64,000 nucleotides of DNA from Spirosoma endbachense (lineage in GTDB: Bacteria; Bacteroidota; Bacteroidia; Cytophagales; Spirosomataceae), in assembly GCF_010233585.1 (NCBI RefSeq), contig NZ_CP045997.1, forward strand, positions 6,987,783-7,051,782. Reading direction: 5' to 3'. The notes below the pieces were generated by a model. It searched no databases and was not told the origin of the DNA. It worked only from the letters and a program-made list of their open reading frames with translations. The stretch's first letter is position 1, and each line of letters begins with the position of its first letter. Of the stretch, positions 6,890-64,000 are shown one piece after another. Made by a program: the position numbers and the translations under genes.

Positions 6890-9484
6890 TTAGTCATCCA
6901 ACTCGCCTATCGAAGTAGCAGTCTGACGTTTAATTAGTTTATTGAGTTCTACTGCCCAGAATGTAAGACTTGAAACGGCTAGTGTTATTCCTAATTCAGA
7001 GGCCGATAAAGGCTGGGTGCTGAAGAGGTTATTGAAAAAAGGCATGTAGATGATAAGTAATTGAAGGACTATCGATACGCCAATGGCCCCAAGCATGGGT
7101 TTGTTAGAAAATAGCCCAAGGCTAAAAACCGACGCTTGACGCGAACGGATCGCCAGGGCGTTACCCAATTGACTGAAACAGAGCACGGTAAAGGTCATCG
7201 TTTGCCAATGCCCAATACCCGCGTGGATCGACCAGGCTTCGATGCCGATGGTAGTAGCCCCAATCAGTAAACCGACCCAGAGGATGAACCAGGCTAGTCC
7301 ATCGGCAAAAATAGTTTGCCTGGGATCGATGGGTGGTCGTTTCATACTATTCCTTTCAGAGGGTTCGTAGGCCAGGGCCAAACCGGGCAGACCGTCGGTT
7401 AACAGATTGATCCACAAAATATGAATGGCTAGTAGCGGGATGGGTAAACCGAAAAAAGGCGCTAAAAAGATCGCCCAGATTTCGCCCGCATTGCCGGACA
7501 TGATATACCTGATAAATTTCAGGATGTTATCAAAGATGCGTCGCCCGTGTTTCACCGCCTTGACGATGGTCGCGAAGTTGTCGTCCAACAGAATCATGTG
7601 CGCGGCTTCTTTGGCTACTTCCGTGCCCGTGATGCCCATCGCGATACCAATATCGGCGTTTTTAAGGGCAGGCGCGTCATTTACGCCGTCGCCGGTCATG
7701 GCCACAAACTGATGCCGGGCTTGTAACGCGCTAATGATTCGTAGCTTCTGTTCAGGATCGACCCGCGCATATACCCGCACCTTCTCCACAATGGCGTCGA
7801 ATGCTGACTCATCCAACTTAGACAGTTCCGGCCCGGTCAGCACCAAATCATCAATTGACGAGATAATACCCAGTGTTTGGGCGATGGACTTGGCCGTTAG
7901 TTTATGATCGCCGGTGATCATCACAGGAATAATGCCGGCAGCTTTGCATTCCGCCACAGCTTGCCGGGCTTCGTCGCGGGGCGGGTCAAGAAGTCCAGCA
8001 AACCCAATAAACAGCAACTCTGATTCTATCGTCGCGGGCGCTATCGTCTGGGGTAGTTCGGGCAGCCATTTGCCCGCATAGCCCAACATACGATAGCCTT
8101 GTTCAGCCATCGAGTCGACGCGCTGTCGTAAATCGGGAATACTGGATTGCTGGCTGGCATCGAGTTGATCAAACAATACCCCAACGGCTCCTTTGGTTAA
8201 ACAAAGGATACCGTTCGGCGTTTGATGTAACGTCGTCATGCACTTGCGTTGTGAGTCGAAAGGAAGTTCGGCGATGCGCGGAAATTGAGTTTCGAGCGTA
8301 ACTCGCTCGTATTCCTGACTGGCAGCATACTGAACTAGCGCTACTTCCGTAGAGTCACCAAGCCAGTTATCATCTTTATCGGTTACGACATCATTGTTGA
8401 GGGCCATTGCAGCTAGCAGTGCGTTGCTCGTTTCTAAAACGGGTAAGGCAAACATCGGCGATTCGTAGATTTCCTGCACCCTCATTTTGTTGAGCGTCAG
8501 TGTGCCCGTTTTGTCGGTGCAGACATAAGTGACCGATCCCAGCGTTTCCACCGCTGGTAGTTTACGAATCAGCGCATGGCTTTTTACCAACCGTTTTGCG
8601 CCCAGCGCCAGTGCGATGGTAACCACTGCCGGCAGTGCTTCAGGAATGGCGGCAACGGCCAGCGAAATGGAAACCAGCAATAAATTCAGGATTGGCTCGC
8701 CCCGCAACCAGCCAACACCAAAAAAAATACCACAGAGTACCAAAACCGCTACCGACAAGCCCTTGCCAAATACGGCCAGTCGTTTCTGAAGGGGCGTTAT
8801 GGTTTCTTCGGTTTGAATCAGGGTGGCAATCCGACCCAGTTCGGTGTTCATGCCGGTAGCAACGACATAGGCGGAGGCTCGCCCATTGGTCACGAATGTA
8901 CCTTTATAGCCCATGTTCAGACGGTCTCCGAGCGGATAATCACCCTCGGGAAGCGTGTCCGGTGTTTTCTCAACATTGGTTGACTCCCCCGTTAGTGACG
9001 ATTCATCCACTTTAAGTGCGTGGGTTTCGATAAACCGAACATCAGCAGGGATAATATTCCCCGCTTCCAGCAACGTAACATCGCCGGGCACCAGGTCGGA
9101 CGTTTCCACCTTGGTGGCCCGATTATTTCGTAGCACCTGTGCCTGATGGGCGGCCATTTTTTTGAGGGCATCCATGGCCTTGTCAGCCCGATACTCCTGA
9201 ATAAATCCGATAATGGCGTTGAGGATAATAATGGTAAGAATAACGTACGTGGATTTTAATTCGCCCACCAGTCCCGAAATTAGGGCAGCCGCGATGAGCA
9301 CCAGAATCATCACATCCGTCAATTGATGCAGCAGAATCTGCCAGACCGTTTTCTTTTTGGCGTCCACAATCTGATTTTTGCCGTATTCGGCCAGTCGCTG
9401 TCGGGCCGTTGCGGGATCAAGCCCAGCGGGTGAGGTCTTCAGCGAACGGGCTGCGTCGACAACCGGCATTACGTAATAATTCAT
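6890..9484 (-). CDS. P-type cation-transporting ATPase (type IIA/Ca2+-like)
   Basis: 864 residues, full length. Order: cytoplasmic N-terminus, transmembrane pairs near 50-95, actuator domain with LTGES (164-168), membrane helix with PEALP (281-285), phosphorylation site CTDKTGT with D324, nucleotide-binding domain with KGA (431-433), hinge TGDGVNDAP (597-605) and four to six C-terminal helices with the cation_ATPase_C domain. The PEALP motif (PEGLP in many SERCA and PMCA pumps) and overall layout place it with bacterial Ca2+/Mg2+-type P2A pumps such as YloB or PacL. Substrate is therefore probably Ca2+, but Mn2+ or Na+/K+ types cannot be excluded. It is followed 42 bases later by a small membrane protein gene on the opposite side of its start (upstream), all on the minus strand. 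Confidence 0.93.
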   Translation of the reverse strand: MNYYVMPVVDAARSLKTSPAGLDPATARQRLAEYGKNQIVDAKKKTVWQILLHQLTDVMILVLIAAALISGLVGELKSTYVILTIIILNAIIGFIQEYRADKAMDALKKMAAHQAQVLRNNRATKVETSDLVPGDVTLLEAGNIIPADVRFIETHALKVDESSLTGESTNVEKTPDTLPEGDYPLGDRLNMGYKGTFVTNGRASAYVVATGMNTELGRIATLIQTEETITPLQKRLAVFGKGLSVAVLVLCGIFFGVGWLRGEPILNLLLVSISLAVAAIPEALPAVVTIALALGAKRLVKSHALIRKLPAVETLGSVTYVCTDKTGTLTLNKMRVQEIYESPMFALPVLETSNALLAAMALNNDVVTDKDDNWLGDSTEVALVQYAASQEYERVTLETQFPRIAELPFDSQRKCMTTLHQTPNGILCLTKGAVGVLFDQLDASQQSSIPDLRQRVDSMAEQGYRMLGYAGKWLPELPQTIAPATIESELLFIGFAGLLDPPRDEARQAVAECKAAGIIPVMITGDHKLTAKSIAQTLGIISSIDDLVLTGPELSKLDESAFDAIVEKVRVYARVDPEQKLRIISALQARHQFVAMTGDGVNDAPALKNADIGIAMGITGTEVAKEAAHMILLDDNFATIVKAVKHGRRIFDNILKFIRYIMSGNAGEIWAIFLAPFFGLPIPLLAIHILWINLLTDGLPGLALAYEPSERNSMKRPPIDPRQTIFADGLAWFILWVGLLIGATTIGIEAWSIHAGIGHWQTMTFTVLCFSQLGNALAIRSRQASVFSLGLFSNKPMLGAIGVSIVLQLLIIYMPFFNNLFSTQPLSASELGITLAVSSLTFWAVELNKLIKRQTATSIGELDD

Positions 9485-9984: not shown

Positions 9985-10539
9985 TTATACTTTCAGTTGA
10001 TGATTTTCCAATTTTTCGTTTATCTGCTGAAGTAAAATAAATTGCTTTTCCTGCGTCTCAAAAAGAGTTTTTATTTGATCTTCCAGTAATATATCTATCT
10101 TTTTATTCAGGCTTCGGATTTGCATTTCCGCTTTTAAATTGATTAGATAGTCATTTTCACTTCGCATTCGGTCTTTTTCTTCCTGTCTATTTTGGCTCAT
10201 CATAATGATAGGAGCTTGCAAGGCGGCAATACAGGATAGAATCAGATTCATTAAAATGAATGGATAGGGATCAAATTTGTAGGTCCCGATAGCCAATACA
10301 TTGAAAATAATCCAGAGCGTGAGCAGGATACCGAACCAACTGATGAACTGCCAACTCCCGCCAAATCGCGCGACTTTATCCGAAAGCTTTTGGCCTTGTG
10401 TCAAGATTTCCAATGGCGGATTGACCAGATTATGAATGATGAGTTCTTCCGCCCTGATCGTTTCCTTAACAATCTTGTGTAATTTCTTAAGATAACCGTT
10501 TTCATCTGCTAGTAACTGGTCCATTTCGAAACTGTTCAT
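9985..10539 (-). CDS. DUF1003 domain membrane protein
   Basis: 184 residues. The centre has two transmembrane helices (about 63-88 and 92-115) followed by the DUF1003 hallmark: DPYPFILMNLILSCIAALQA, then IIMMSQNRQEEKDR. After that come a charged helix with NDYLINLKAE and a C-terminal coiled-coil-like tail. DUF1003 proteins are inner-membrane proteins of unknown function, often found near Mg2+ or Ca2+ transport genes. The gene is first in an apparent operon with the four-helix protein and the P-type ATPase. Confidence 0.92.
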   Translation of the reverse strand: MNSFEMDQLLADENGYLKKLHKIVKETIRAEELIIHNLVNPPLEILTQGQKLSDKVARFGGSWQFISWFGILLTLWIIFNVLAIGTYKFDPYPFILMNLILSCIAALQAPIIMMSQNRQEEKDRMRSENDYLINLKAEMQIRSLNKKIDILLEDQIKTLFETQEKQFILLQQINEKLENHQLKV

Positions 10540-29451: not shown

Positions 29452-30852
29452 CTACAAATGGATCGCTTCGCCGTAAGCAGCTTCGGTGGCATCTTTAATG
29501 GATTCCGACATGGTTGGGTGTGGGTGAACCGACTTCAGAATTTCTTCGGCGGTTGTTTCCAGCTTGCGGGCAGCCACTACTTCGGCAATCATTTCAGTTA
29601 CGTTGTTACCGATAAAGTGCGCTCCCAGAAACTCACCATACTTGGCGTCGAAAATTACTTTTACAAAGCCCTCTGGCGTACCGGCGGCTTTGGCCTTGCC
29701 CGATGCGGTGAAGGGAAACTTCCCGACTTTCAGTTCATAACCAGCTTCACGAGCGGCTTTTTCGGTATAACCTACCGATGCAATTTCGGGTGTGCAATAC
29801 GTGCAGCCAGGAATATTGTTGTAGTTCAATGGCTCAACGTGCGGCAATCCGGCAATTTTTTCTACACAGATAATGCCCTCTGCGGATGCTACGTGCGCCA
29901 GTGCCTGGCCTTTCGTAACGTCACCGATCGCATAGTAGCCTTCAACATTAGTCCGGTAATAATCGTCGGTTACGATCTTGCCCCGATCAACCGTAATACC
30001 GACTTCTTCGAGGCCAATGTTTTCGATATTGGCCACAACACCAGCCGCCGACAGTACAACGTCTGCTTCGAAAGTTTTTTCGCCGTCGGGCGTTTTTACA
30101 ACTATCTTACAGCCTTTACCGCTGGTATCGACCTTCGTTACTTCGGACTTCGTGTAAATATCGATGCCCATCTTCTTGTACTGCTTGGCGAGTTCTTTTG
30201 AAATATCCTCGTCTTCGACCGGTACTACGCTGGGCAGGAATTCAACAATCGTCACTTTGGTGCCCATGCTGGCGTAGACATAAGCAAACTCAACGCCAAT
30301 AGCTCCTGAACCGATAACCAGCATCGAGTCCGGGCGTTTTTCGAGCGACATTGCTTTCCGATACTCGATAATCTTAACGCCATCGAATGGTGCGGCAGGC
30401 AATTGACGGGCGCGGCCACCGGTAGCGATGATGATATGCTTGGCTTCGTATTCGGTAACTTTGCCATCGGCAGCAGTCACGTCAATTTTCTTCCCTGGTT
30501 TCACTTTACCGACGCCATTGATTACGTCGATTTTATTTTTCTTCATCAGGAACTGGACGCCCTTGCTCATGCTGTCGGCAACGCCCCGGCTCCGCTTGAT
30601 AACAGCCCCAAAATCGGCCTGCGACTCGCCCGAAATGGTAATTCCATAATCGGCAGAGTGCTTAATGTATTCAAAAACCTGCGCTGATTTAAGCAGCGCT
30701 TTGGTAGGGATACAGCCCCAGTTCAGACAGATGCCGCCGAGGCTTTCGCGCTCAATGACGGCCGTTTTCATACCCAACTGCGACGCCCGGATGGCGGCTA
30801 CATAACCGCCCGGCCCGCTACCCACAACGATTACATCGTACTGTGAAGCCAT
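29452..30852 (-). CDS. lpdA: Dihydrolipoyl dehydrogenase (E3)
   Basis: 466 residues. FAD-binding GSGPGGYVAA (11-20), redox disulphide C42/C47 in GGICLNWGCIPTK, NAD-binding GSGAIGVEFA, second FAD motif (AIGDVTKG), and the dimer-interface HPHPTMSE with the catalytic His. It reoxidises lipoamide in pyruvate, 2-oxoglutarate and other 2-oxoacid dehydrogenases. It stands alone here. A long antisense frame (29422-30201) is its shadow. Confidence 0.97.
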   Translation of the reverse strand: MASQYDVIVVGSGPGGYVAAIRASQLGMKTAVIERESLGGICLNWGCIPTKALLKSAQVFEYIKHSADYGITISGESQADFGAVIKRSRGVADSMSKGVQFLMKKNKIDVINGVGKVKPGKKIDVTAADGKVTEYEAKHIIIATGGRARQLPAAPFDGVKIIEYRKAMSLEKRPDSMLVIGSGAIGVEFAYVYASMGTKVTIVEFLPSVVPVEDEDISKELAKQYKKMGIDIYTKSEVTKVDTSGKGCKIVVKTPDGEKTFEADVVLSAAGVVANIENIGLEEVGITVDRGKIVTDDYYRTNVEGYYAIGDVTKGQALAHVASAEGIICVEKIAGLPHVEPLNYNNIPGCTYCTPEIASVGYTEKAAREAGYELKVGKFPFTASGKAKAAGTPEGFVKVIFDAKYGEFLGAHFIGNNVTEMIAEVVAARKLETTAEEILKSVHPHPTMSESIKDATEAAYGEAIHL

Positions 30853-31443
30853 TTTTTGTGTATTGGAGTTATGTCAGGATTCGTTAGGTGTAGTCAGGAG
30901 TAGCCAGCAAAGAAACCGTTGACAAATCCCGAATACACCTGCCCCTTTTGTTTTGAGAACGCAAAGGTAGGTCGAAAAGTTGACACAGGAATACCTCGAA
31001 TGAGGCTATACTATTAGTTAGTTACTAGTGAGTTGAAGATCCCCTCCTGCTGCATACGGCAATGTTCCGGATAAGTTCAGATCCCAGGCCTGTACCTCCT
31101 ACTATTGTTCTCGCCAAACTACAGGCTAAAGGGCTTATCTGCTATGATTCGAAGTCATAATGGCTTATTTGAGTGTCACGCCTGAGACTGGTATCGTAAT
31201 GGTGGCAGTTGCGCTGCCATCAGAACTATTCAGCACGGCTTCCCCAAAAAGCCAGCGAATTCCCAGGCAAATCCTCGAAACCACATACCCACTTTCTTTT
31301 GTTCTATCTTTGCAAAAAACAACAGATGCTGGATGTCGATGAATAGCTGCTGGACGCTGGCTATTATCTTCATCTAAAATCCAATGCCTGGCGTTCAATA
31401 GCCAATCGTTAAGTTTACTATCAATTAACAATAAGACAAGTTC
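30853..31443. other. Intergenic region upstream of prfB, no gene recognised
   Basis: About 590 bases between divergent lpdA and prfB. Short frames occur on both strands (plus 31160-31342, minus 31165-31431) that overlap each other. The minus frame ends in SDGSATATITIPVSGVTL, which looks like a secreted-protein beta-strand but has no recognisable start. It may be a fragment of an old gene. Promoters of lpdA and prfB should lie at the two ends. Confidence 0.45.
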
Positions 31444-32521
31444 ATGACAACTGACCAGTTGAACGACTTGAGGGCCAGAGTAGAGGCCTTGAGGGGGTAT
31501 CTTTGACTACGACACCAAACGCGACCAATTAGCCGAACTCGAACAGCAGACTTTCCAGCCTGAATTCTGGACCGATGCGGCTCGGGCAGAGGGTGTAATG
31601 AAGCAGGTTCGCGGACTGAAAGGCTGGATTTCCGGCTATGATAAACTAGATAGTCAGTTCGGCGATCTCGAAACGTTATTTGAATTTTACGAAGCAGGCG
31701 ACGTACCCGAAGAAGAGGTCGATGCCGAAGGCCGTAAAGTAACGGATACGCTCGAAGATCTCGAACTCAAAAAAATGCTCGGCAACGAAGAGGATCAACT
31801 CAGTGCCGTGCTTGAAATCAATGCGGGTGCGGGCGGTACCGAAAGCCAGGACTGGGCCGATATGCTGTATCGAATGTACATGCGCTGGGCCGAAAAACAC
31901 GGCTATGGCCTGAAACAAGTGGATTATCAGGAGGGAGATACCGCTGGTATTAAATCGGCAACGATCGAAGTTGATGGTGCGCTGGCCTATGGTTTTCTGA
32001 AGTCCGAAAACGGTGTACACCGGCTGGTTCGGATTTCTCCGTTCGACTCCAATGCCCGCCGACATACGTCGTTTGCCTCCGTATTTGCCTATCCGCTGGT
32101 TGATGACACGATTCAAATTGAGGTGAATCTGGCCGATATCGACTGGGATACGTTTCGGTCGGGTGGTGCTGGTGGTCAGAACGTTAACAAAGTCGAAACC
32201 GCCGTTCGGCTGCGCCACCGTCCTTCGGGCCTGATCATTGAGTGTCAGCAGGAACGGAGCCAGTTGCAGAACAAAGAGGTAGCCATGCGCCTGCTTAAAT
32301 CGAAGCTGTATGAGATTGAAGTTCAGAAACGCAATGCTGCCCGTGCTGAGGTAGAAGCCGGAAAACAGAAGATCGAATGGGGATCGCAGATTCGCTCCTA
32401 CGTACTCGACGACCGGCGCGTGAAAGACCACCGCACAGGCTACCAGACATCGAATACGGAAGCCGTGCTTGACGGCGAAATCGATCCGTTTATAAAAGCG
32501 TTCCTGCTGGAGCAGGAGTAG
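31444..32521 (+). CDS. prfB: Peptide chain release factor 2, with programmed +1 frameshift
   Basis: Joined frame 31444-31503 plus 31505-32521 gives 358 residues. The first 20 codons end CTT, then an in-frame TGA (31504-31506). Skipping one T continues GAC TAC GAC in the frame of the rest ([14 protein letters not shown]). The protein has the GGQ motif ([13 protein letters not shown], peptide release) and the RF2 region for UGA/UAA recognition. The shift autoregulates the protein because RF2 terminates at this TGA. An annotation starting at 31598 would miss about 50 residues. Confidence 0.97.
31492..31507 (+). promoter_or_regulatory. prfB +1 programmed frameshift site
   Basis: The sequence AGGGGGTATCTTTGAC has the standard parts: a Shine-Dalgarno-like AGGGGG three bases before the CTT slippery codon, then the TGA stop and a C that weakens it. 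It is the same sequence as the E. coli prfB site. Here the ribosome slips from CTT to TTT. Confidence 0.96.
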
Positions 32522-32643
32522 CGTGAACCGAATTGCCGGGTAGCCCCGCAGGATTCTGTGATGAAAACGGCCTGATCACTAACAAATCCAGTTGTCCAAT
32601 AATACCGTTTATTCGGTAAAAACACTCAACTGGTAGTGAACTC

Positions 32644-33366
32644 ATGGCAGTCCATTTAATCATTCAGCTCTTTCGGGGCCTCCCGGCTATTTTTCTGCTC
32701 ATGGCCTGTGTGCAGCCATCTGACAATTCTGTTATGACCATGACCACTGCCGCAACTCAATCAAAATATACCTTCCTGTCGCTCGGTGATTCATACACCA
32801 TTGGCGAAAGCGTATCTGACAATGAGCGCTGGAGTGTTCAGTTGGCCGGGTTGCTGCGAAAAAATGGCGTAGACATCGCTGATCCCGATATTATTGCCCG
32901 GACGGGCTGGACAACGGCGGAATTGCAGGATGCCATTAAAGCCAGTGGTAACCAAAAAACATATGGCCTGGTTTCCTTGCTGATCGGGGTTAACAACCAA
33001 TATCGGGGGCAAAGCCAGAATCGCTATCAGACTGAGTTTCGGGAATTACTACAAACCGCAATCAAATTTGCGGGAGGCAAAGCCGGGCATGTTGTCGTAC
33101 TTTCGATTCCTGACTGGGGCCAAAGCCCCTTCGCCAGAGGCCGGAATCAAAAACAGATTGCCGACGAGATTGATGCCTTCAATGCGATTGCTCAACAGGA
33201 ATGCAAAGCAGCAGGCATCTCGTATGTAGACATTACTCCGCTCACGCATAAGGCGGCTGGCGATACTAACCAATTCGCAGTCGACGGCCTCCATTACTCG
33301 GGAAAACAAATGCGCCAGTGGGCCGAAGCCACTCTGCCCATCGTTAAAGATATCCTGAAACAATAG
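32644..33366 (+). CDS. SGNH/GDSL hydrolase, probable lipoprotein
   Basis: 240 residues. A hydrophobic N-terminus ends in LLMAC, a lipobox-like site (C at about 22), so it is probably a lipoprotein. The SGNH motifs are present: block I LSLGDSYTIGE (nucleophile Ser), block III GVNNQYRG (Asn), block V DGLHYSG (catalytic Asp/His). It hydrolyses an ester or acetyl group; substrate unknown. It lies 122 bases downstream of prfB on the same strand. Confidence 0.9.
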   Translation: MAVHLIIQLFRGLPAIFLLMACVQPSDNSVMTMTTAATQSKYTFLSLGDSYTIGESVSDNERWSVQLAGLLRKNGVDIADPDIIARTGWTTAELQDAIKASGNQKTYGLVSLLIGVNNQYRGQSQNRYQTEFRELLQTAIKFAGGKAGHVVVLSIPDWGQSPFARGRNQKQIADEIDAFNAIAQQECKAAGISYVDITPLTHKAAGDTNQFAVDGLHYSGKQMRQWAEATLPIVKDILKQ

Positions 33367-33372
33367 ACTTCG

Positions 33373-34071
33373 TTATGCTGCGACAGATTCGGTCTCGGCA
33401 AATTTTGCCTTATAATACCGCACCGTCCGGCCGATCAGCATACCACCAAGCAAACTAGGTGCGATCCAGCCAGCGGTTGCGATCCAGTCAGGTGCCTCTG
33501 CCGGTACTATCCGACCAATATTCGTAACCAGTGCTGCGGTAAACGTAGCAATGTAAGAACCGCCCATCCGCGTAAAATGCTGAAAAAACCAGTGCATTTT
33601 TTCGGTAGACTCGACCCCAAACCGTCGAACGTCCTGCATCGCAAAAACACCCGTTAAACCGCCAAAGAAGGTAAACAGAATCGGGAAGAAAGACGTACCA
33701 TTCTGTATGGTCAGATACATCCCAAAACCAACCATCAGTACACTAACAGCCAGCGTAACATAAGTAAGTACCCGATCACCGTTGGTTGGGCCTGTCTTTT
33801 TCTGTTTGGTAGCCCGCCAACCGGTCATACTCAGGTAAAAACTAAAAATAGCGATGCCCGTTAGAAACAGCCGCATCATCCTGAAAGGCTGAAGGCCACA
33901 TAGTAGCAAAGCTGTTATAGCTACCGTAATCATGCAATAGACATAGACAAGCCCGGCACGATTGTGCAGGAGACTTCCTTTTTTAGAAAACATCGGAATC
34001 AGGCCAACCAGCAAAGCCGTAAAACCAGTGGCAATGTGGATGATAAGCAACGAAATAATCAGCGTTTTCAT
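33373..34071 (-). CDS. DUF2306-like membrane protein
   Basis: 232 residues with about seven hydrophobic segments. The opening (HIATGFTALLVGLIPMFSKKG, then LHNRAGLVYVYCM) has the His, Gly and Arg pattern of DUF2306 proteins, and a later FQHFTRMGGSYIA is also typical of that group. Function unknown. It is convergent with the SGNH hydrolase gene (6-base gap), so they share a termination region. Confidence 0.75.
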   Translation of the reverse strand: MKTLIISLLIIHIATGFTALLVGLIPMFSKKGSLLHNRAGLVYVYCMITVAITALLLCGLQPFRMMRLFLTGIAIFSFYLSMTGWRATKQKKTGPTNGDRVLTYVTLAVSVLMVGFGMYLTIQNGTSFFPILFTFFGGLTGVFAMQDVRRFGVESTEKMHWFFQHFTRMGGSYIATFTAALVTNIGRIVPAEAPDWIATAGWIAPSLLGGMLIGRTVRYYKAKFAETESVAA

Positions 34072-34206
34072 AGCCGTAAAGCGTTTGTGTTCGACAGCGG
34101 CAAACCTACGGCAATGAGCTCAACCACTGCGATTTAAAGGGATTATTGGCAGAGCCTGGGATGTTTGGCAAGCAAAAACGACATTTGGGATAAACGGTGG
34201 GACGTT

Positions 34207-35115
34207 TTACAAAGCCTTTAACTCGGCTACCAGCGTCTCGTTGTATTTCCGCGCAACGGGTACCTGAAACTGCCCCCCCAATAGGTGCAGTTTGTAGCCC
34301 TGTGCATTACCCGTTACGCGCTCAATGCGATCGAGATTGACGATGTAGGAGCGATGGCATCGAACAATGTGCGGTGATGTGATCTGGCCCTCCAATCGGC
34401 TCAGGCTGCTTCGAAGAAGGGGCTTAACGGGCTGAAGCTGTCCAGTCGGGTTATGCTTCAGATAAACGACGGTGGAGTAATTGTCGCTCGATTCAATAAA
34501 AAGCAAATCAGCTGGAGATAGGGTAAGGCTATCTTTCTCATTGTCGGCAACGAGTGTCAAGACAGGAACGGCTGTTTCGCCCGGCTGACCAGTTGCTTTC
34601 TTTTCGTAGTTCTGACTATTCGATTCAGGCGAGTGAACCGGCAATTCCGCAGCCGCATGACTATATTTTTTGAGCTGGCGAATATAATTGAACAAAACGG
34701 TTCCTGTCACCGGAAATAAGCCAATCACGAACGTGACCACGATCATACCCCACCAACCGACACCGCTTTTTTCTTCATCGACCAGCGATTCCAGATAAAA
34801 TCGATTCGCAATGGCAATTAGAAGAATATTGGCCATCACCAGCAGGATTTCGCGCCCTACCGTCCAGTATGTATCCGAAAATTGATTGGGGAATAGCCGT
34901 GGCCAGATAATGAAGTTAAAGGTTGTGACAATAAACGTGATACCGCCAAACCCCAATAATTTGAACAATTTATTAGGCGTTTGCCAGTCGCTCAGTCCAA
35001 ACGGTTGAAAGACCAGTAGAAACAAGCCAATAAATAATCCGATAAGAGCGGCTCTCAGGGTCTGCTGCCCCAGGGAGTCTTCAACAGGATAAGGTTGGCT
35101 GAATAGTTTAAACAT
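34207..35115 (-). CDS. Membrane-anchored LytTR DNA-binding protein
   Basis: 302 residues. Four hydrophobic segments (about 22-45, 53-72, 85-108 and 118-145) are followed by a linker and a C-terminal LytTR domain (about 200-302; IVRCHRSYIVNLDRIERV, and GGQFQVPVARKY). No receiver is present. This one-component layout (membrane sensor with LytTR output) is found in Bacteroidota. The signal and targets are not evident. It lies 18 bases downstream of a rhomboid gene (35134-35757) and is probably co-transcribed. Confidence 0.92.
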   Translation of the reverse strand: MFKLFSQPYPVEDSLGQQTLRAALIGLFIGLFLLVFQPFGLSDWQTPNKLFKLLGFGGITFIVTTFNFIIWPRLFPNQFSDTYWTVGREILLVMANILLIAIANRFYLESLVDEEKSGVGWWGMIVVTFVIGLFPVTGTVLFNYIRQLKKYSHAAAELPVHSPESNSQNYEKKATGQPGETAVPVLTLVADNEKDSLTLSPADLLFIESSDNYSTVVYLKHNPTGQLQPVKPLLRSSLSRLEGQITSPHIVRCHRSYIVNLDRIERVTGNAQGYKLHLLGGQFQVPVARKYNETLVAELKAL

Positions 35116-35133
35116 ACCGGTTCACGGCTATCG

Positions 35134-35757
35134 TTAAAACAACCGCCACCCGGCAATCTGATCGATAAACTGCGGCAGAACGGGCGGGTAAACTAAACAC
35201 ATAAAGAGAACTCCGAATAAGGCCCCGTATAAGTGAGCATCATGATTGACGGTGCCTGCTCCCCGCTGGGATTCGTAGTAGGAATAGATCAGGTATAGCG
35301 GGCCAAAGATGAAGCCAGAAATACCGATGGGGATAAAAAACAGGTAAAGTTTGGTAAGGGGGCTAATAAGAATACCGGCAAAAATGATAGCCGATACACC
35401 ACCAGATGCGCCCAGCGAGTTGTATCTGGAATCTTTGCGGTGTTTCAAAAAGGTTGGGATACTGGAAATGACGATAGCAATCAAATAGAAACCGACGTAA
35501 TAGATTGTTCCACTAGCCCCAAAAAGACTAGCGAACACCTGTTCCATAAGCCCGCCAAACGCATAGAAGCTAATCATGTTAAAAATCAAATGCATCCAGT
35601 CGGCGTGTAAGAATCCCGCGGTCAGCAGGCGGTAATATTGACCCTTCTGAGCCACCTGATATGGATTCAGTATCCAGCGATTCATCACACTATAGTCGTT
35701 CCAGGCCCATAGGCTGATACCAGCGGTGACAATAATAATAATAAGAGTAATGCTCAT
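35134..35757 (-). CDS. Rhomboid-family intramembrane serine protease
   Basis: 207 residues, compact, with six hydrophobic segments. HADWMHLIFNMISFYAFG in the loop/helix 2 region, catalytic Ser in LGASGGVSAI, and His in NHDAHLYGALFG. This is the third rhomboid of the window and closest to the bare six-helix form. It is followed 18 bases later by a membrane LytTR regulator gene, an arrangement that invites the idea of proteolytic control of the regulator, but that is only inference. Confidence 0.92.
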   Translation of the reverse strand: MSITLIIIIVTAGISLWAWNDYSVMNRWILNPYQVAQKGQYYRLLTAGFLHADWMHLIFNMISFYAFGGLMEQVFASLFGASGTIYYVGFYLIAIVISSIPTFLKHRKDSRYNSLGASGGVSAIIFAGILISPLTKLYLFFIPIGISGFIFGPLYLIYSYYESQRGAGTVNHDAHLYGALFGVLFMCLVYPPVLPQFIDQIAGWRLF

Positions 35758-35847
35758 GGTATTGGTTTATAGCTTCCGGCTTACGCTTTGTCGTTTTTAG
35801 TCACTCTGACTAGAATTGTAAATCACAAACAGTAACCCATCTGCCGA

Positions 35848-36819
35848 TTAGCTTTCCCGTTCGACTAATTGCCGGGTAAATTGAAGTAAGAATGCCTTAC
35901 GCGCAGAATCAGCGTTGATTTGTTCGAAGTTAGCAAATCCCTGCGCAAAGTAATCGTTAATACGTGCTTCGGTAATCTGTCGGATACCTAACTGATCGTA
36001 AATGGTTGTAATAGCCCGTACTTTTTCGGCTTTGTCGAAGTCGGGGCGGGTTAGCCAGCCGATCAATTCGTCTTTGACGGAGCCGGTAGCTTGTTCGAGC
36101 GCTTCGATGAGCAGGAATGTTTTCTTATTCGCAATGATATCTCCGCCCACCTGCTTTCCGAATTTAGCCGGATCGCCATATACATCCAATAAATCATCTT
36201 TCAGCTGAAAACCGATCCCAATATTTACCCCACCTGCGTAAAGATGAGCATTAGTTTCGTCATCGGCTCCGCCAATTAAACCCCCTAGCTCAAGTGCGTA
36301 TCCGAGCAGAACCGATGTTTTTAGCCGGATCATGTCAATGTATTCCGCTTCAGTGACGTCCCAGCGTTTTTCAAAATTCATGTCCATTTGCTGGCCTTCA
36401 CAAACTTCGGCGGCTGTGCGCGTAAACCGGGTCATGGCAGGCTTCAGTTTATCGGCATCAACATCCAGCAGTAATTCATGCGCCTTAACCAGCATCACAT
36501 CTCCCGATAAAATGGCGATGTTGTAATTCCATTTTTTATGCACGGTCGGTTGGCCACGGCGCAAAGGAGCCTGGTCCATAATGTCGTCGTGCATGAGCGT
36601 GAAGTTGTGAAAAACCTCAACGGCAAGCGCGGGCCGGATCGCCTTTTTCCAGTCGTCGGTGAAGAGGTAGGCAGCCATCAACGTCAGTAGTGGACGCATC
36701 CGTTTGCCACCGAGGCTCATAATATACCGGATCGGGTCGTAAAGTTCGGGGGGATACTGTCCGTATGGTGTACGTTGAAGTTCGTTTTGAAGAGCATCAA
36801 TAAAAATAGCTGGACTCAT
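35848..36819 (-). CDS. Polyprenyl (geranylgeranyl-type) diphosphate synthase
   Basis: About 323 residues from the ATG at 36819; a longer frame uses a TTG at 36867 with a poor N-terminus, so I prefer the ATG. The first Asp-rich motif is DDIMD (HDDIMDQAPLRRG) and the second KDDLLD (QLKDDLLDVYG), both binding Mg2+-diphosphate. GGKRMRP near the start binds IPP. It makes a short or medium isoprenoid diphosphate from IPP and an allylic primer; chain length cannot be told with certainty. Confidence 0.94.
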   Translation of the reverse strand: MSPAIFIDALQNELQRTPYGQYPPELYDPIRYIMSLGGKRMRPLLTLMAAYLFTDDWKKAIRPALAVEVFHNFTLMHDDIMDQAPLRRGQPTVHKKWNYNIAILSGDVMLVKAHELLLDVDADKLKPAMTRFTRTAAEVCEGQQMDMNFEKRWDVTEAEYIDMIRLKTSVLLGYALELGGLIGGADDETNAHLYAGGVNIGIGFQLKDDLLDVYGDPAKFGKQVGGDIIANKKTFLLIEALEQATGSVKDELIGWLTRPDFDKAEKVRAITTIYDQLGIRQITEARINDYFAQGFANFEQINADSARKAFLLQFTRQLVERES

Positions 36820-60879: not shown

Positions 60880-61490
60880 TGAGCCCCTAATTCCTGGACA
60901 GAATTTCCTAGTTGTTAGTTGGAACATTTTCTGCTATTCAGCTCGTGCATATCCACTCCCCGTTCCAACAGAAATTGATAGGGACTTCGGTAATGGAGCC
61001 CCGAATGAATGCGCTCTAAGTTATAAAAATCCCGGAAACGATTCATCGTCTCATGGCTTGGCCCAGGCTTTCGAACTCGTATCGCTTACAAACAGCTCGT
61101 TCCAGAATGCTGTGATAGCTCTCAATATGAGCATGCTGTTTGGGGGGTGCTGGTTTGGTAAACTCCTGAATCACATGCCGGTCGCGAAAATAAGTTCGCA
61201 CCAGATCGGCCACAAACTGACTCCCATTATCGTTGCGAACATAAAGCTGAGTGGGTAAGCCATAACGCTCAAAGAGCGTTTCAAATAAGGCTACTACATC
61301 CTCTTGGCGCATAGTCCATTTGATCAATTGGCCCATAGTCCACCGACTGAAAACGTCTAGAACGGTTAACACCTGAGCGTGCGCACGGCGGGCATGAACG
61401 TAAATGGCCTTAATGTCGAGCCGCAGCCGCGGACCGCTCAAAATAAGTAAATTCAGTCGTAGGGCTTGGCACCAACTTTAAGGTGACAAT
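60880..61490 (-). mobile_element. Decayed IS3-type insertion sequence
   Basis: The left edge begins TGAGCCCCTAATTCCTGGAC (60880-60899), which looks like an IS3-type terminal repeat; I found no matching right copy. The transposase (integrase core) is in several frames: EFTYFERS near 61430-61460, then the main frame 61043-61441, then RFRDFYNLERIHSGLHYRS after a frame change near 61035 down to about 60914. The upstream orfA and the N-terminal helix-turn-helix are gone. It lies between two AT-rich genes. Confidence 0.75.
61043..61441 (-). pseudogene. IS3-family transposase fragment (rve core)
   Basis: 132 codons, opening with a TTG. It has the integrase-core residues: first Asp in LDIKAIYV, second Asp in RNDNGSQF and the Glu in HIESYHSILERAV, so the DDE set is present, but the frame ends at a TGA after LGQAMRR and the natural C-terminus continues in another frame (RFRDFYNLERIHSG). 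The N-terminus is also lost to a frame change near 61435. Not active. Confidence 0.85.
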
Positions 61491-61652: not shown

Positions 61653-62828
61653 CTAATATTCAAAATCTAAATCGTCAAACCCAGGCAATAAAGGTGTAGT
61701 AGAAATAGGCGACTTTTTTGCATTGACTAAATCAGTCAAAAAATTAATCTCAGCTAAAGCCCATTGGTAAAATAGTCTTTTAGGGAGTAAACCTTCAAAA
61801 GCAGCCAAAAGTGGATATACTAAGTCTAAATCAGTATCCACCCGCTCCTGAATTTTATTTCTAATATTAGCTTCATTTTCAGTCACAGACATTTTTTCAA
61901 TAAGGCTACCAATCATAACATAACCTTTATCTCCTATGTATTCAGCATAACGATTTTGGATATTAAATACTCTATTCCAAGTTTCTATCTTTTCAGCAAA
62001 AATGGTATCACCAGCGTTTGTAGGAGCAATATTTAACTGCCATTTTCCACCACTTCTTAGTGTAGGGTATTCAAGACATGTTAGCTGAAAATTACAAGAT
62101 AAATATGGGTCAGGAGCATTAGTGTAAGGATAAAAAGCAATAGTCCGAAGTAATCTATCGTCATCGCTATATAATAAATGTTTTGTATCTTTTAAACCAT
62201 TGCATATCAAACCAATCGGAGAAAGGTTTCTAAGATTAACAGCTGAAAATACAAATAATGAGTCTCCTTTAGGTAATAGATGATCATAATCTGGCCGTCC
62301 TTCTGATTCAACCATCTTGAGACCTTCGATGCCGCAGTATGGGCAAATAGTAAACATACCTCTATCTTCAATTGCAAAATTTCTAAGAGTATGGTAATGA
62401 TTATAGAAGTTTTGATTGTGAATTTTTTTAGTAAAAGTAGTATCCTTAGAAGATAGTTGCCCCGAATATAAAGGAACAAATAAATCATTTAAAAATATTT
62501 GTAAAGTAGGAAAATCCAAAGCTGTTGGTATCTCCAGTTGGTTTAAATGAATATCCATTTTATTAGAAAATAGATATTCTATATCATTTGCGGCAAAAAA
62601 TGATTGAATAATATTAAGTTGGCTTGCTCTATCAAACGTCTCTATAAATATCCTGAGTTTGTCTTCTAAGCCCAGTAACCTATTGGCAGTATCTGAATAC
62701 CAGTCAGGAAATAAAATAGTCCGATTAAATGTATTGGGGTTATCGTCCCTAACTTTTTCAAAAAAGAACACAAGTAGTTCATGTAATTTCTCTACATCAT
62801 GATTTATATATGGTAAATAGAATAGCAT
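61653..62828 (-). CDS. HNH endonuclease, PtuB-like (Septu-type defence)
   Basis: 391 residues, AT-rich. The HNH nuclease part is in the middle: CPYC (162-165), DHLLPK with the His (182-187), NLSPIG with the Asn (201-206) and CN with K213 (209-213), as in zinc-finger HNH nucleases of the PtuB kind. Flanking domains (1-155 and 240-391) are helical and not recognised. The start is 5 bases after the stop of the ATPase gene at 62834, so the two are one operon. With the ATPase it resembles a Septu system, which cuts phage-infected cell DNA or restricts phage. Because the ATPase is truncated, activity is doubtful. Confidence 0.75.
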   Translation of the reverse strand: MLFYLPYINHDVEKLHELLVFFFEKVRDDNPNTFNRTILFPDWYSDTANRLLGLEDKLRIFIETFDRASQLNIIQSFFAANDIEYLFSNKMDIHLNQLEIPTALDFPTLQIFLNDLFVPLYSGQLSSKDTTFTKKIHNQNFYNHYHTLRNFAIEDRGMFTICPYCGIEGLKMVESEGRPDYDHLLPKGDSLFVFSAVNLRNLSPIGLICNGLKDTKHLLYSDDDRLLRTIAFYPYTNAPDPYLSCNFQLTCLEYPTLRSGGKWQLNIAPTNAGDTIFAEKIETWNRVFNIQNRYAEYIGDKGYVMIGSLIEKMSVTENEANIRNKIQERVDTDLDLVYPLLAAFEGLLPKRLFYQWALAEINFLTDLVNAKKSPISTTPLLPGFDDLDFEY

Positions 62829-62833
62829 TATCT

Positions 62834-63868
62834 CTACACGTTTTGCAAGCGTAATTTCTGTTCTTTATCAGTATATATTTTTATCAAATATGTTTTATCT
62901 GTAGAATCTCCAAGCATTTTAATTCTTTTCTGGAAATCTTCAGACAACGATAACCAATCTTTAAGAGAATTAACTGATTCAATATCATTATATACAGCCT
63001 CAATGTCCAGAAATGACATTTTCGCTATCTGGCTTTTAAAGTGGTCATTATCTTTATTATCTGCTTGGAATATGTCATCAAGAATATTTTTAAAGGTAGT
63101 TCCATACGTTTCCTTTTTCACACGCTCAAATGTAACGTGTGAATCTTTTTTGGCAAATTTAAATACATTGTAGCCATGACAATCAGAGAGAATAAACGGA
63201 GAGTGAGTGGTAAGAATAAATTCAATATCTCGATTTTCCAATATACTCTGAAGTTGATAAAAAAAAGTACTTCTCCAAAAAGGGTTAAAGTGTGTATCAG
63301 GTTCGTCTAATAAATAAATCAAATCTCTCATAGGTTCTTTTTCATCAAATAGCATTATCCCCCCTAATATATGCATAAATTGATGCTCGCCATCGCTAAT
63401 TTTTTCATATTCTGTTCTGACTTTAGGTTCTGTCAAAACAAGTTCAATTTGCTCTATACTAAATATTTTATCTAATGATGCAATTTGTGGAAACTTGAGT
63501 AATTGGCCCTTGGCTCTTTTTTTCCTCAAAATATTTCTATAGGTTTTCTGAATACAAAGAGTATTCAATAGATTTAATTTATTTAATGCTTCAAATAAAT
63601 TCTGGGGGCTAGAATCAAATTTTTTACTGAATAAAGATTTAGTTGCTTCATTAATAATAAAATCTAATATGTATTCATTTCCTCTTTTAGAATCCATTTT
63701 TATTGAAGATAAAGCTGAACAATCTATTAAATCTTGGATATAGCCTTCTAACTCTTTTGTTACTTTTACATTTTTATTGCCATATAATTTATTTAGTCTT
63801 ATAATAATTCTGAAGCTATTCATTCTGTCGATTCTAAGAGTCTCTTTGAATATAGCTCGTTTACCCTC
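62834..63868 (-). pseudogene. AAA/ABC-type ATPase, PtuA-like, truncated at its 5' end
   Basis: 329 residues from the first ATG (63823), but the frame is open upstream with no start through KRAIFKETLRIDR until it meets the insertion-sequence-like sequence at about 63860. Present: SDGEHQ signature (143-148), Walker B LLDEPDTHFNP (171-181) and H-loop TTHSPF (205-210). Missing: the whole N-terminal Walker A (GxxGxGKS), which should come first in such ATPases. So the 5' part has been removed. It is followed at once by the HNH gene. AT-rich like it. Coordinates of the upper limit are approximate. Confidence 0.7.
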
Positions 63869-64000
63869 ACTAGCAGGGCTTTCTTATAAAACTGGCTGGG
63901 AGCCAGTAGTCTTACCTTTGTGGTTAACTAGACGACAAATTCATGACCCCTGTTCCCAGCACGGCTAAAACTACGGCTTTCTTTCAACTTCTCAACCAAA
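63869..64000 (+). mobile_element. Probable left end of an insertion sequence (window edge)
   Basis: The composition changes from AT-rich to mixed near 63860. A short palindrome ACTGGCT-GGG-AGCCAGT (63890-63906) lies near the edge, and an ATG at 63943 begins a frame (MTPVPSTAKTTAFFQLLNQ) that runs off the window; this is like the start of a transposase, but only 19 residues are visible, so the family cannot be named. It sits where the ATPase frame is cut. Confidence 0.5.

Follow-up and report, generated by a model that had tools for sequence, protein, structure and literature searches.

The right end of the 64,000-nucleotide stretch of Spirosoma endbachense DNA analyzed here (the window; C1:6987783–7051782 of genome G000, within a 10.33-Mb pseudo-contig) carries the 3′ part of a broken restriction-type operon. 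The sequences indicate that the original gene order is hsdM-hsdS-ATPase-HNH, a type I methyltransferase followed by a Septu-like ATPase–HNH nuclease pair, and that this operon is broken three times, by an ISAs1 element in the ATPase gene, an IS630-type element in hsdS and a stop codon in hsdM. We hold the anatomy of the locus as a whole with high confidence, and the complete explanation, in which anatomy is mixed with the mechanism proposed below, is still probable. The module in S. endbachense is almost certainly dead, with only its HNH gene whole; an earlier note on this DNA had already judged the pair probably inactive, and our inference agrees.

The two minus-strand genes at the window edge, which the earlier note had described as AT-rich and 5 bases apart, are shown in Table 1. 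Their GC content is 0.308, compared with 0.468 for the whole window, and the two other pieces of the operon have values of 0.304 and 0.318. The translated open reading frame of the HNH gene contains the motifs CPYC...DHLLPK...NLSPIG...CN in this order, and in an alignment of 24 sequences (the window protein and 23 homologues) residues C162, C165, D182, H183, N198, N201, C209 and N210 are invariant, bearing out the motifs noted before. The ATPase part measures 329 amino acids from its first ATG (62834–63823), with the frame open upstream to 63883, and the remnant comprises the last 345 codons of the gene, cut at 63874. It has the signature SDGEHQ, the Walker B motif LLDEPD and the H-loop TTHSPF, and it lacks Walker A, exactly as had been described.

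The cut coincides with the end of an ISAs1-type element, the start of which had been placed around 63860, close to the exact position of 63874. The complete copy of this element variant (variant A) is 1237 bp long and encodes a 385-amino acid transposase of the ISAs1 type (NF033564, E 2.5e-43, 148 bits against a cut-off of 70), oriented opposite to the operon. Inverted repeats of ISAs1 elements begin CAGGG; here the two element ends are alike in 22 of the first 25 bases. A search of the genome with TIGR04435, the family model of the ATPase, returned two places, the window and C1:2888288–2889037 (profile positions 1–259). Walker A is present in the second piece as GLNGSGKS; the piece runs up to the opposite end of this element variant, and there the 10-bp target duplication of the window recurs. 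With 16 pairings possible for variant A, about 1.5e-5 such duplication matches would be expected by chance. Aligned with an intact Flavobacterium ATPase, the two halves correspond to residues 1–217 (54% identity) and 213–553 (59.6%), with Walker A solely in the N-terminal part. The alignment and the duplication indicate that the ISAs1 insertion splits the Walker A part from the signature and Walker B part of one ATPase gene, so that the proposed separation of the 5′ part by insertion stands. The missing part was not found beyond the element to the right, where the earlier note had thought it might lie and advised reading; this direction was misleading, as the window end directly abuts a run of 33 N followed by a repeat-rich surface-protein gene unrelated to the pair, and the N-terminal half is placed 4.16 Mb from the window on the pseudo-contig.

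Table 1. Features at the right end of the window (window positions; coordinates with C1 are those of the pseudo-contig)
Feature	Position	Strand	Remarks
Integrase-core (rve) remnant of another transposase	61043..61441	minus	Pfam PF00665, E 2.4e-11
HNH-type nuclease gene	61653..62828	minus	Intact, 391 amino acids; partner of the ATPase
ATPase gene, C-terminal part	62834..63873	minus	Walker B, ABC signature, H-loop; open to the insertion
10-bp target duplication, gene sense CTAGTGAGGG	63864..63873		Other copy at C1:2888937-2888946, beside the N-terminal half
ISAs1-family element, first 127 bp	63874..64000	plus	127/127 bases equal to the end of the complete copy C1:10249665-10250901
Inverted repeat CAGGGCTTTCTTATAAAA	63874-63891		ISAs1 element end
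ISAs1 transposase gene, start (MTPVPSTAKTTAFFQLLNQ)	63943..64000	plus	Cut by the window end

The recorded distance of 4.16 Mb would also be expected if recombination between ISAs1 copies had moved the two halves apart, a reading we regard as highly improbable given the distribution of the element ends. The genome contains 28 occurrences of the 18-base ISAs1 inverted repeat, four of which belong to two complete copies, each between 33-N spacers. Every element variant has just one complete copy in the record, whereas recombination would leave complete elements at the breakpoints. The other 24 are stubs identical to a complete copy for 121–129 bases only, and in 15 of them N follows immediately. 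These stubs pair into exactly 12 insertions, all 12 with a perfect 10-base duplication and a matching variant, and the partners lie 0.46–7.6 Mb apart in 11 pairs and 269 bases apart in one. Since all 24 free ends pair and 11 of the 12 insertions are equally "separated", the distance reflects contig order and the insertion is real; a true chromosomal rearrangement was rejected on this pairing pattern. The whole pattern is explained if contigs ended at collapsed repeats and were afterwards strung together, and we infer an assembly k-mer of 127. Judging by the stubs and spacers, the operon was probably assembled as three distant contigs because both insertion sequence (IS) elements are present in several identical copies. 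Synteny in the S. endbachense record is thus untrustworthy across repeats, and distances on the pseudo-contig are not real. Joins without N also occur, for example at about position 10073 of stretch L041, and the record looks concatenated. Positions 10274–12000 of L041 (C1:2889273 onward) contain a putative replication-initiator-like open reading frame with repeated iteron-like accgactaaacctcactt motifs; this stretch may come from a plasmid whose contig was joined to the chromosome record.

The upstream genes of the operon were found on the stretch of the N-terminal half and on a third stretch. From C1:2887606 the C-terminal part of hsdS runs into the start of the ATPase gene with an overlap of 20 bases, an arrangement shared with the intact Flavobacterium operon, and this hsdS part begins at the end of an IS630-type element (transposase NF033545). 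The N-terminal part of hsdS, preceded by hsdM, lies on the third stretch, which ends in the opposite IS630-type end (C1:2755551–2757884). Among the loci of this genome compared with the Flavobacterium HsdS, only these two places matched, and PF01420 is found in both pieces (E 6.5e-9 and 1.3e-4), the intact relative HsdS having two such stretches. Weighing against the join, the IS630 duplication is too short to prove it alone. HsdM has the N6-methyltransferase domain, with matches to PF02384 (E 1e-43) and PF12161 (E 3.4e-12); its gene has an in-frame stop after 327 codons with the remainder open, and the genome search likewise reports one TAA. The next long open reading frame upstream of hsdM is on the same strand and ends 444 bases away, and from its first residues we take it to be dihydroorotase-like. 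The single break assumed in the earlier note is real, at the ISAs1 site, and two more breaks interrupt the operon.

Both ATPase halves have TIGR04435, "restriction system-associated AAA family ATPase", as their best NCBIfam match. The C-terminal part matches profile positions 245–565 of 568 (E 2.7e-59, 201 bits), leaving about 240 N-terminal positions missing from the window, and the N-terminal part scores 97 bits over positions 1–226; the halves were scored apart, the gene being broken, and the cut-off of 300 bits applies to the whole protein, which the intact relative at locus L099 exceeds (311 bits). The window ATPase scores 53 bits with retron PtuA. Matches to the PADLOC model PtuA1 were obtained for the C-terminal half (E 2.5e-22) and for an intact relative (E 3.2e-40), and PDB matches of the intact relative ATPase include the retron Ec83 ATPase (E 1.7e-7) and PtuA (8ee4, E 0.0059). 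The window HNH protein has no match in Pfam or NCBIfam; in PADLOC it matches PDC-M62B (E 7.4e-8) and PDC-M01B (E 7.2e-7), both models of candidate systems, and none of the PtuB models at E 0.1. Its Flavobacterium relative has a weak PtuB match (E 1.5e-5), and the HNH profile matches one stand-alone Septu-like HNH protein distantly (E 3.1e-9). Comparison of the HNH protein with solved structures gave nothing useful (best E 0.27), and it has no match to phage sequence, including 46 viral stretches. PrrC is absent among the Pfam and NCBIfam matches listed and, for the ATPase, among the best 25 of 75 PADLOC matches. The Septu assignment of the earlier note, for which searches with such models had been suggested, therefore survives in part: the ATPase matches PtuA1 and adjoins an HNH gene, as PtuA does PtuB, but the HNH protein has no PtuB match and the pair stands at the 3′ end of an operon for a type I methyltransferase. 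As judged by these profiles, Septu is an approximate label for the window pair. In the accessible part of a Bacillus survey, 203 Septu calls were also called PDC-M62 by PADLOC (PMC11811056).

With no further stops or frameshifts in the ATPase part or the HNH gene, the shortened ATPase and the HNH protein might be thought to form a working unit. A second locus, L160 (G693:C47), likewise has an intact HNH gene next to a TIGR04435 ATPase frame of which only the last 196 amino acids remain (7761–9448), and hsd genes were not found in its 19 kb. Such a unit is nevertheless very unlikely here, as Walker A is missing and intact homologues of the close ATPase group measure 536–573 amino acids. All five intact relatives aligned carry Walker A, so that a family in which its absence is normal was not encountered. 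For Septu itself, the sections available of PMC13096335 report that PtuA Walker A and B mutants abolish defense and that PtuB needs its HNH residues.

To place the pair among its relatives, loci were gathered by similarity to the HNH protein or to TIGR04435, never by hsd genes. Among 59 genomes of relatives including S. endbachense, 41 gave some match to TIGR04435 and 5 exceeded its cut-off. The HNH profile was positive in 13 of 395 genomes of the phylum and in 26 of 390 of the order, our genome being among the positives each time. Nine of the 12 other positive genomes of the phylum were examined, leaving out G123, G266 and G424, and 20 of the 25 of the order, leaving out G663, G506, G495, G556 and G614 (E 7.7e-5 or weaker); in G468 one of two HNH places was examined. 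A scan of genome contigs (80 candidate stretches) added two loci, and plasmids three. Gene families were labelled by iterated profiles, and in two operons the genes were also checked with Pfam. The ATPase tree has 39 rows and was built by a quick method with midpoint rooting; pieces of 300 amino acids or less (our N-terminal half, L160 and the L174 fragment) and the Sphingobium locus were left out.

In this tree a branch with a Shimodaira–Hasegawa-like approximate likelihood ratio (SH-aLRT) support of 98 sets 24 of the 39 ATPases apart. Besides Bacteroidota relatives, the clade includes one Bacillota and one cyanobacterial plasmid, and the nearest kin of the window ATPase (L099, L156 and L159) form a group with L100 at SH-aLRT 100. 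An HNH gene follows directly downstream in all 24 members (gap −62 to +14 bases), and hsdS lies directly upstream on the same strand in 23 (gap −20 to +43), our own locus being read from the N-terminal-half stretch. Outside the clade, same-strand upstream hsdS was found at none of 13 ATPases of Septu-like pairs; L119, L120 and L160 stand outside these counts. By its position, the window pair thus appears to belong to a type that is not free-standing, L115 alone in the clade being without adjoining hsd genes. The best single hint of contact between HsdS and the ATPase is P0141, an 829-amino acid protein encoded on a 12,681-base metagenome contig, in which an HsdS part (50–270) and a TIGR04435 ATPase (319–826, 301 bits) are predicted in one frame; the fusion is one predicted protein.

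Several observations lie beside these counts. In L119 (G026) and L120 (G045), which branch deeper in the tree, the ATPase gene follows hsdS directly and no HNH gene is present; other effectors may take its place there. The Sphingobium yanoikuyae plasmid pKN1 (L211, 888–11690) has the order hsdR-hsdM-hypothetical-GIY-YIG nuclease-hsdS-ATPase-HNH. The 325-amino acid protein P0084 covers only the N-terminal half of the ATPase, and its longest contig and that of the HNH homologue P0006 are equally long (6511 bases), possibly representing another interrupted copy. The HNH partner is annotated as "hypothetical protein" in all four plasmid records viewed. In the window, the rve remnant sits 3′ of the HNH gene, flanking the AT-rich island.

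Type I restriction systems contain HsdM, HsdS and the translocase-nuclease HsdR; pieces of the first two are present here, and hsdR is missing from part of the clade. It was counted as readable where at least 3.6 kb upstream of hsdM was available, which holds for 18 of 23 hsd-linked operons; L100, L118, L125, L159 and L163 end too close to hsdM or hsdS. Eight readable operons lack hsdR (our own, L099, L116, L117, L121, L122, L156 and L157). No hsdR was seen at the nearest kin L099, L156 and L159, where hsdM is in view, L159 being readable for 0.9 kb only. The HsdR profile recognizes even the divergent Sphingobium HsdR (E 1.5e-74); it gave no match in the window or the stretches L130, L041 and L009 of our genome, in the other hsdR-less loci, in the Priestia plasmid or in the Hymenobacter plasmid, of which all but 395 bases were covered. 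The annotation of the Priestia and Hymenobacter plasmids also lists no hsdR, in a gene table that declares itself incomplete. In the S. endbachense genome the two Pfam models HSDR_N and SWI2_SNF2 have no match at all, making it the only such genome among the 12 and 4, respectively, searched with them. The hsdR-less rows cluster in the tree, with 4 changes compared with 8.2 in shuffles (the table of tree groups counted L159 as hsdR-less and L120 as hsdR-bearing).

The arrangement suggests that the ATPase–HNH pair may be the effector of an operon lacking the usual cutting enzyme. Together HsdM and HsdS methylate bipartite sites, and intact copies of both would form a sequence-specific type I methyltransferase marking the host's own sites. 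We tentatively propose, with somewhat less than even confidence, a type I-like restriction without HsdR, in which the restriction arm is the Septu-like pair recruited through HsdS; the pair would be a second arm in hsdR operons and would replace hsdR in the others. HsdS–HsdM would read the methylation state and pass the result to the ATPase, which HsdS would tether or inform. The ATPase may then form a Septu-like, ATP-controlled assembly that licenses the HNH subunit to cut nucleic acid at unmodified or tampered sites, in place of the translocating HsdR nuclease.

A number of results weigh against this proposal. hsdR is present in 10 of the 18 readable operons (L114, L123, L124, L126, L127, L158, L161, L162, L164 and L165, counting L158, with hsdS in two frames, and L126, with another open reading frame between hsdR and hsdM) and also in the Sphingobium plasmid operon, so replacement of HsdR is not general. 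The genomes of four hsdR-less loci (G014, G017, G219 and G247) encode HsdR-like proteins elsewhere, in G247 about 15 kb from the locus, so HsdR could act in trans there. A divergent HsdR may escape HSDR_N and SWI2_SNF2; of the 14 genomes used as controls, these models found something in 9 and 10, respectively. L115 lies inside the clade without hsd neighbors, L167 and L175 outside the clade adjoin opposite-strand hsd genes, and L128, also outside, has a gene of 1626 amino acids labelled by the HsdR profile. No report of activity for any clade member was found in the open-licence literature.

The hsdR-containing operons fit well with another explanation, in which the ATPase–HNH pair resembles PrrC in guarding the type I enzyme, staying silent on the methyltransferase until a phage anti-restriction protein sets the pair free to halt the cell, perhaps by cutting tRNA. 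The position of the pair follows the logic of prrC inside a type I locus. According to the available portions of the sources, PrrC is an effector encoded within the EcoprrI type I operon that is activated when T4 Stp inhibits EcoPrrI and acts on tRNA-Lys (PMC12707154), one PrrC cluster has the order HsdR, HsdS, PrrC, HsdM (PMC11555353), and tRNA-Tyr is depleted by the retron-Eco7 PtuAB and cleaved by Septu EcB88, the target of another Septu being nicked DNA (PMC11555353, PMC13096335). In hsdR-less operons, however, there would be no restriction left to guard. PrrC is moreover a single tRNase protein in an operon that keeps hsdR, as do the operons of other embedded genes, whereas the pair consists of two proteins, one of them HNH, placed after hsdS. 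We consider the guard function possible, if rather unlikely. In what is accessible of PMC12255303, such embedded genes between hsdS and hsdR include DarTG2 and a pair of a putative RNA-binding protein and an AAA-like ATPase, and a Septu embedded in Hma is described.

The pair could also be a Septu-like passenger that settled behind hsdS and works alone, with the loss of hsdR reflecting decay of the type I system. L115, which carries the pair without hsd genes, and the four genomes with HsdR-like proteins elsewhere are consistent with this. It does not readily account for the 23 of 24 members that keep order, strand and an overlapping or near-abutting start across the hosts of the clade, nor for the fusion P0141 or the clustering of the hsdR-less rows, and we judge it improbable. 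Restriction through the HsdS-recruited pair remains the reading we prefer.

With regard to known systems, TIGR04435 operons share with ours the membership of the ATPase and the restriction context (hsdS overlap, hsdM); the NCBI name indicates that the curators knew this context. The model covers the ATPase alone, and the HNH partner and the hsdR-less arrangement lie outside the name. Compared with Septu, which has the same succession of a PtuA-like ABC-type ATPase and an HNH gene, the pair differs in its link to hsdS and in forming a branch separate from the stand-alone pairs. MADS combines a methyltransferase, an S subunit and an AAA ATPase in one system. Relatives of our operon match MAD3 and MAD5 of NCBIfam weakly (25–29 bits against cut-offs of 400–420 bits), and MADS has five or more subunits in the text available of PMC12904381, compared with four genes here. 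In the open-licence literature no mention was found of "TIGR04435" or "restriction system-associated AAA". PtuA and HsdS are mentioned together in retron/PrrC, Staphylococcus survey and PADLOC papers, one of which also mentions hsdM. No paper was found there on an ATPase–HNH pair behind hsdS, with or without hsdR; the search did not include bioRxiv, and a preprint by Payne et al. on embedded defenses may cover it.

How Septu-like pairs decide to fire is unsettled, and the targets reported in the accessible parts of the literature differ between DNA and tRNA. If the proposal is true, coupling to the specificity subunit of a type I system would provide the pair in this clade with a built-in self/non-self signal, and type I restriction could no longer be said to require HsdR as a rule. 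The hsdR-less operons on small plasmids of Hymenobacter (H. swuensis pHsw2, record positions 30004–35941) and Priestia, both complete in sequence, make the idea testable in laboratory hosts. In S. endbachense the locus is a relic, and the intact family is the interesting object.

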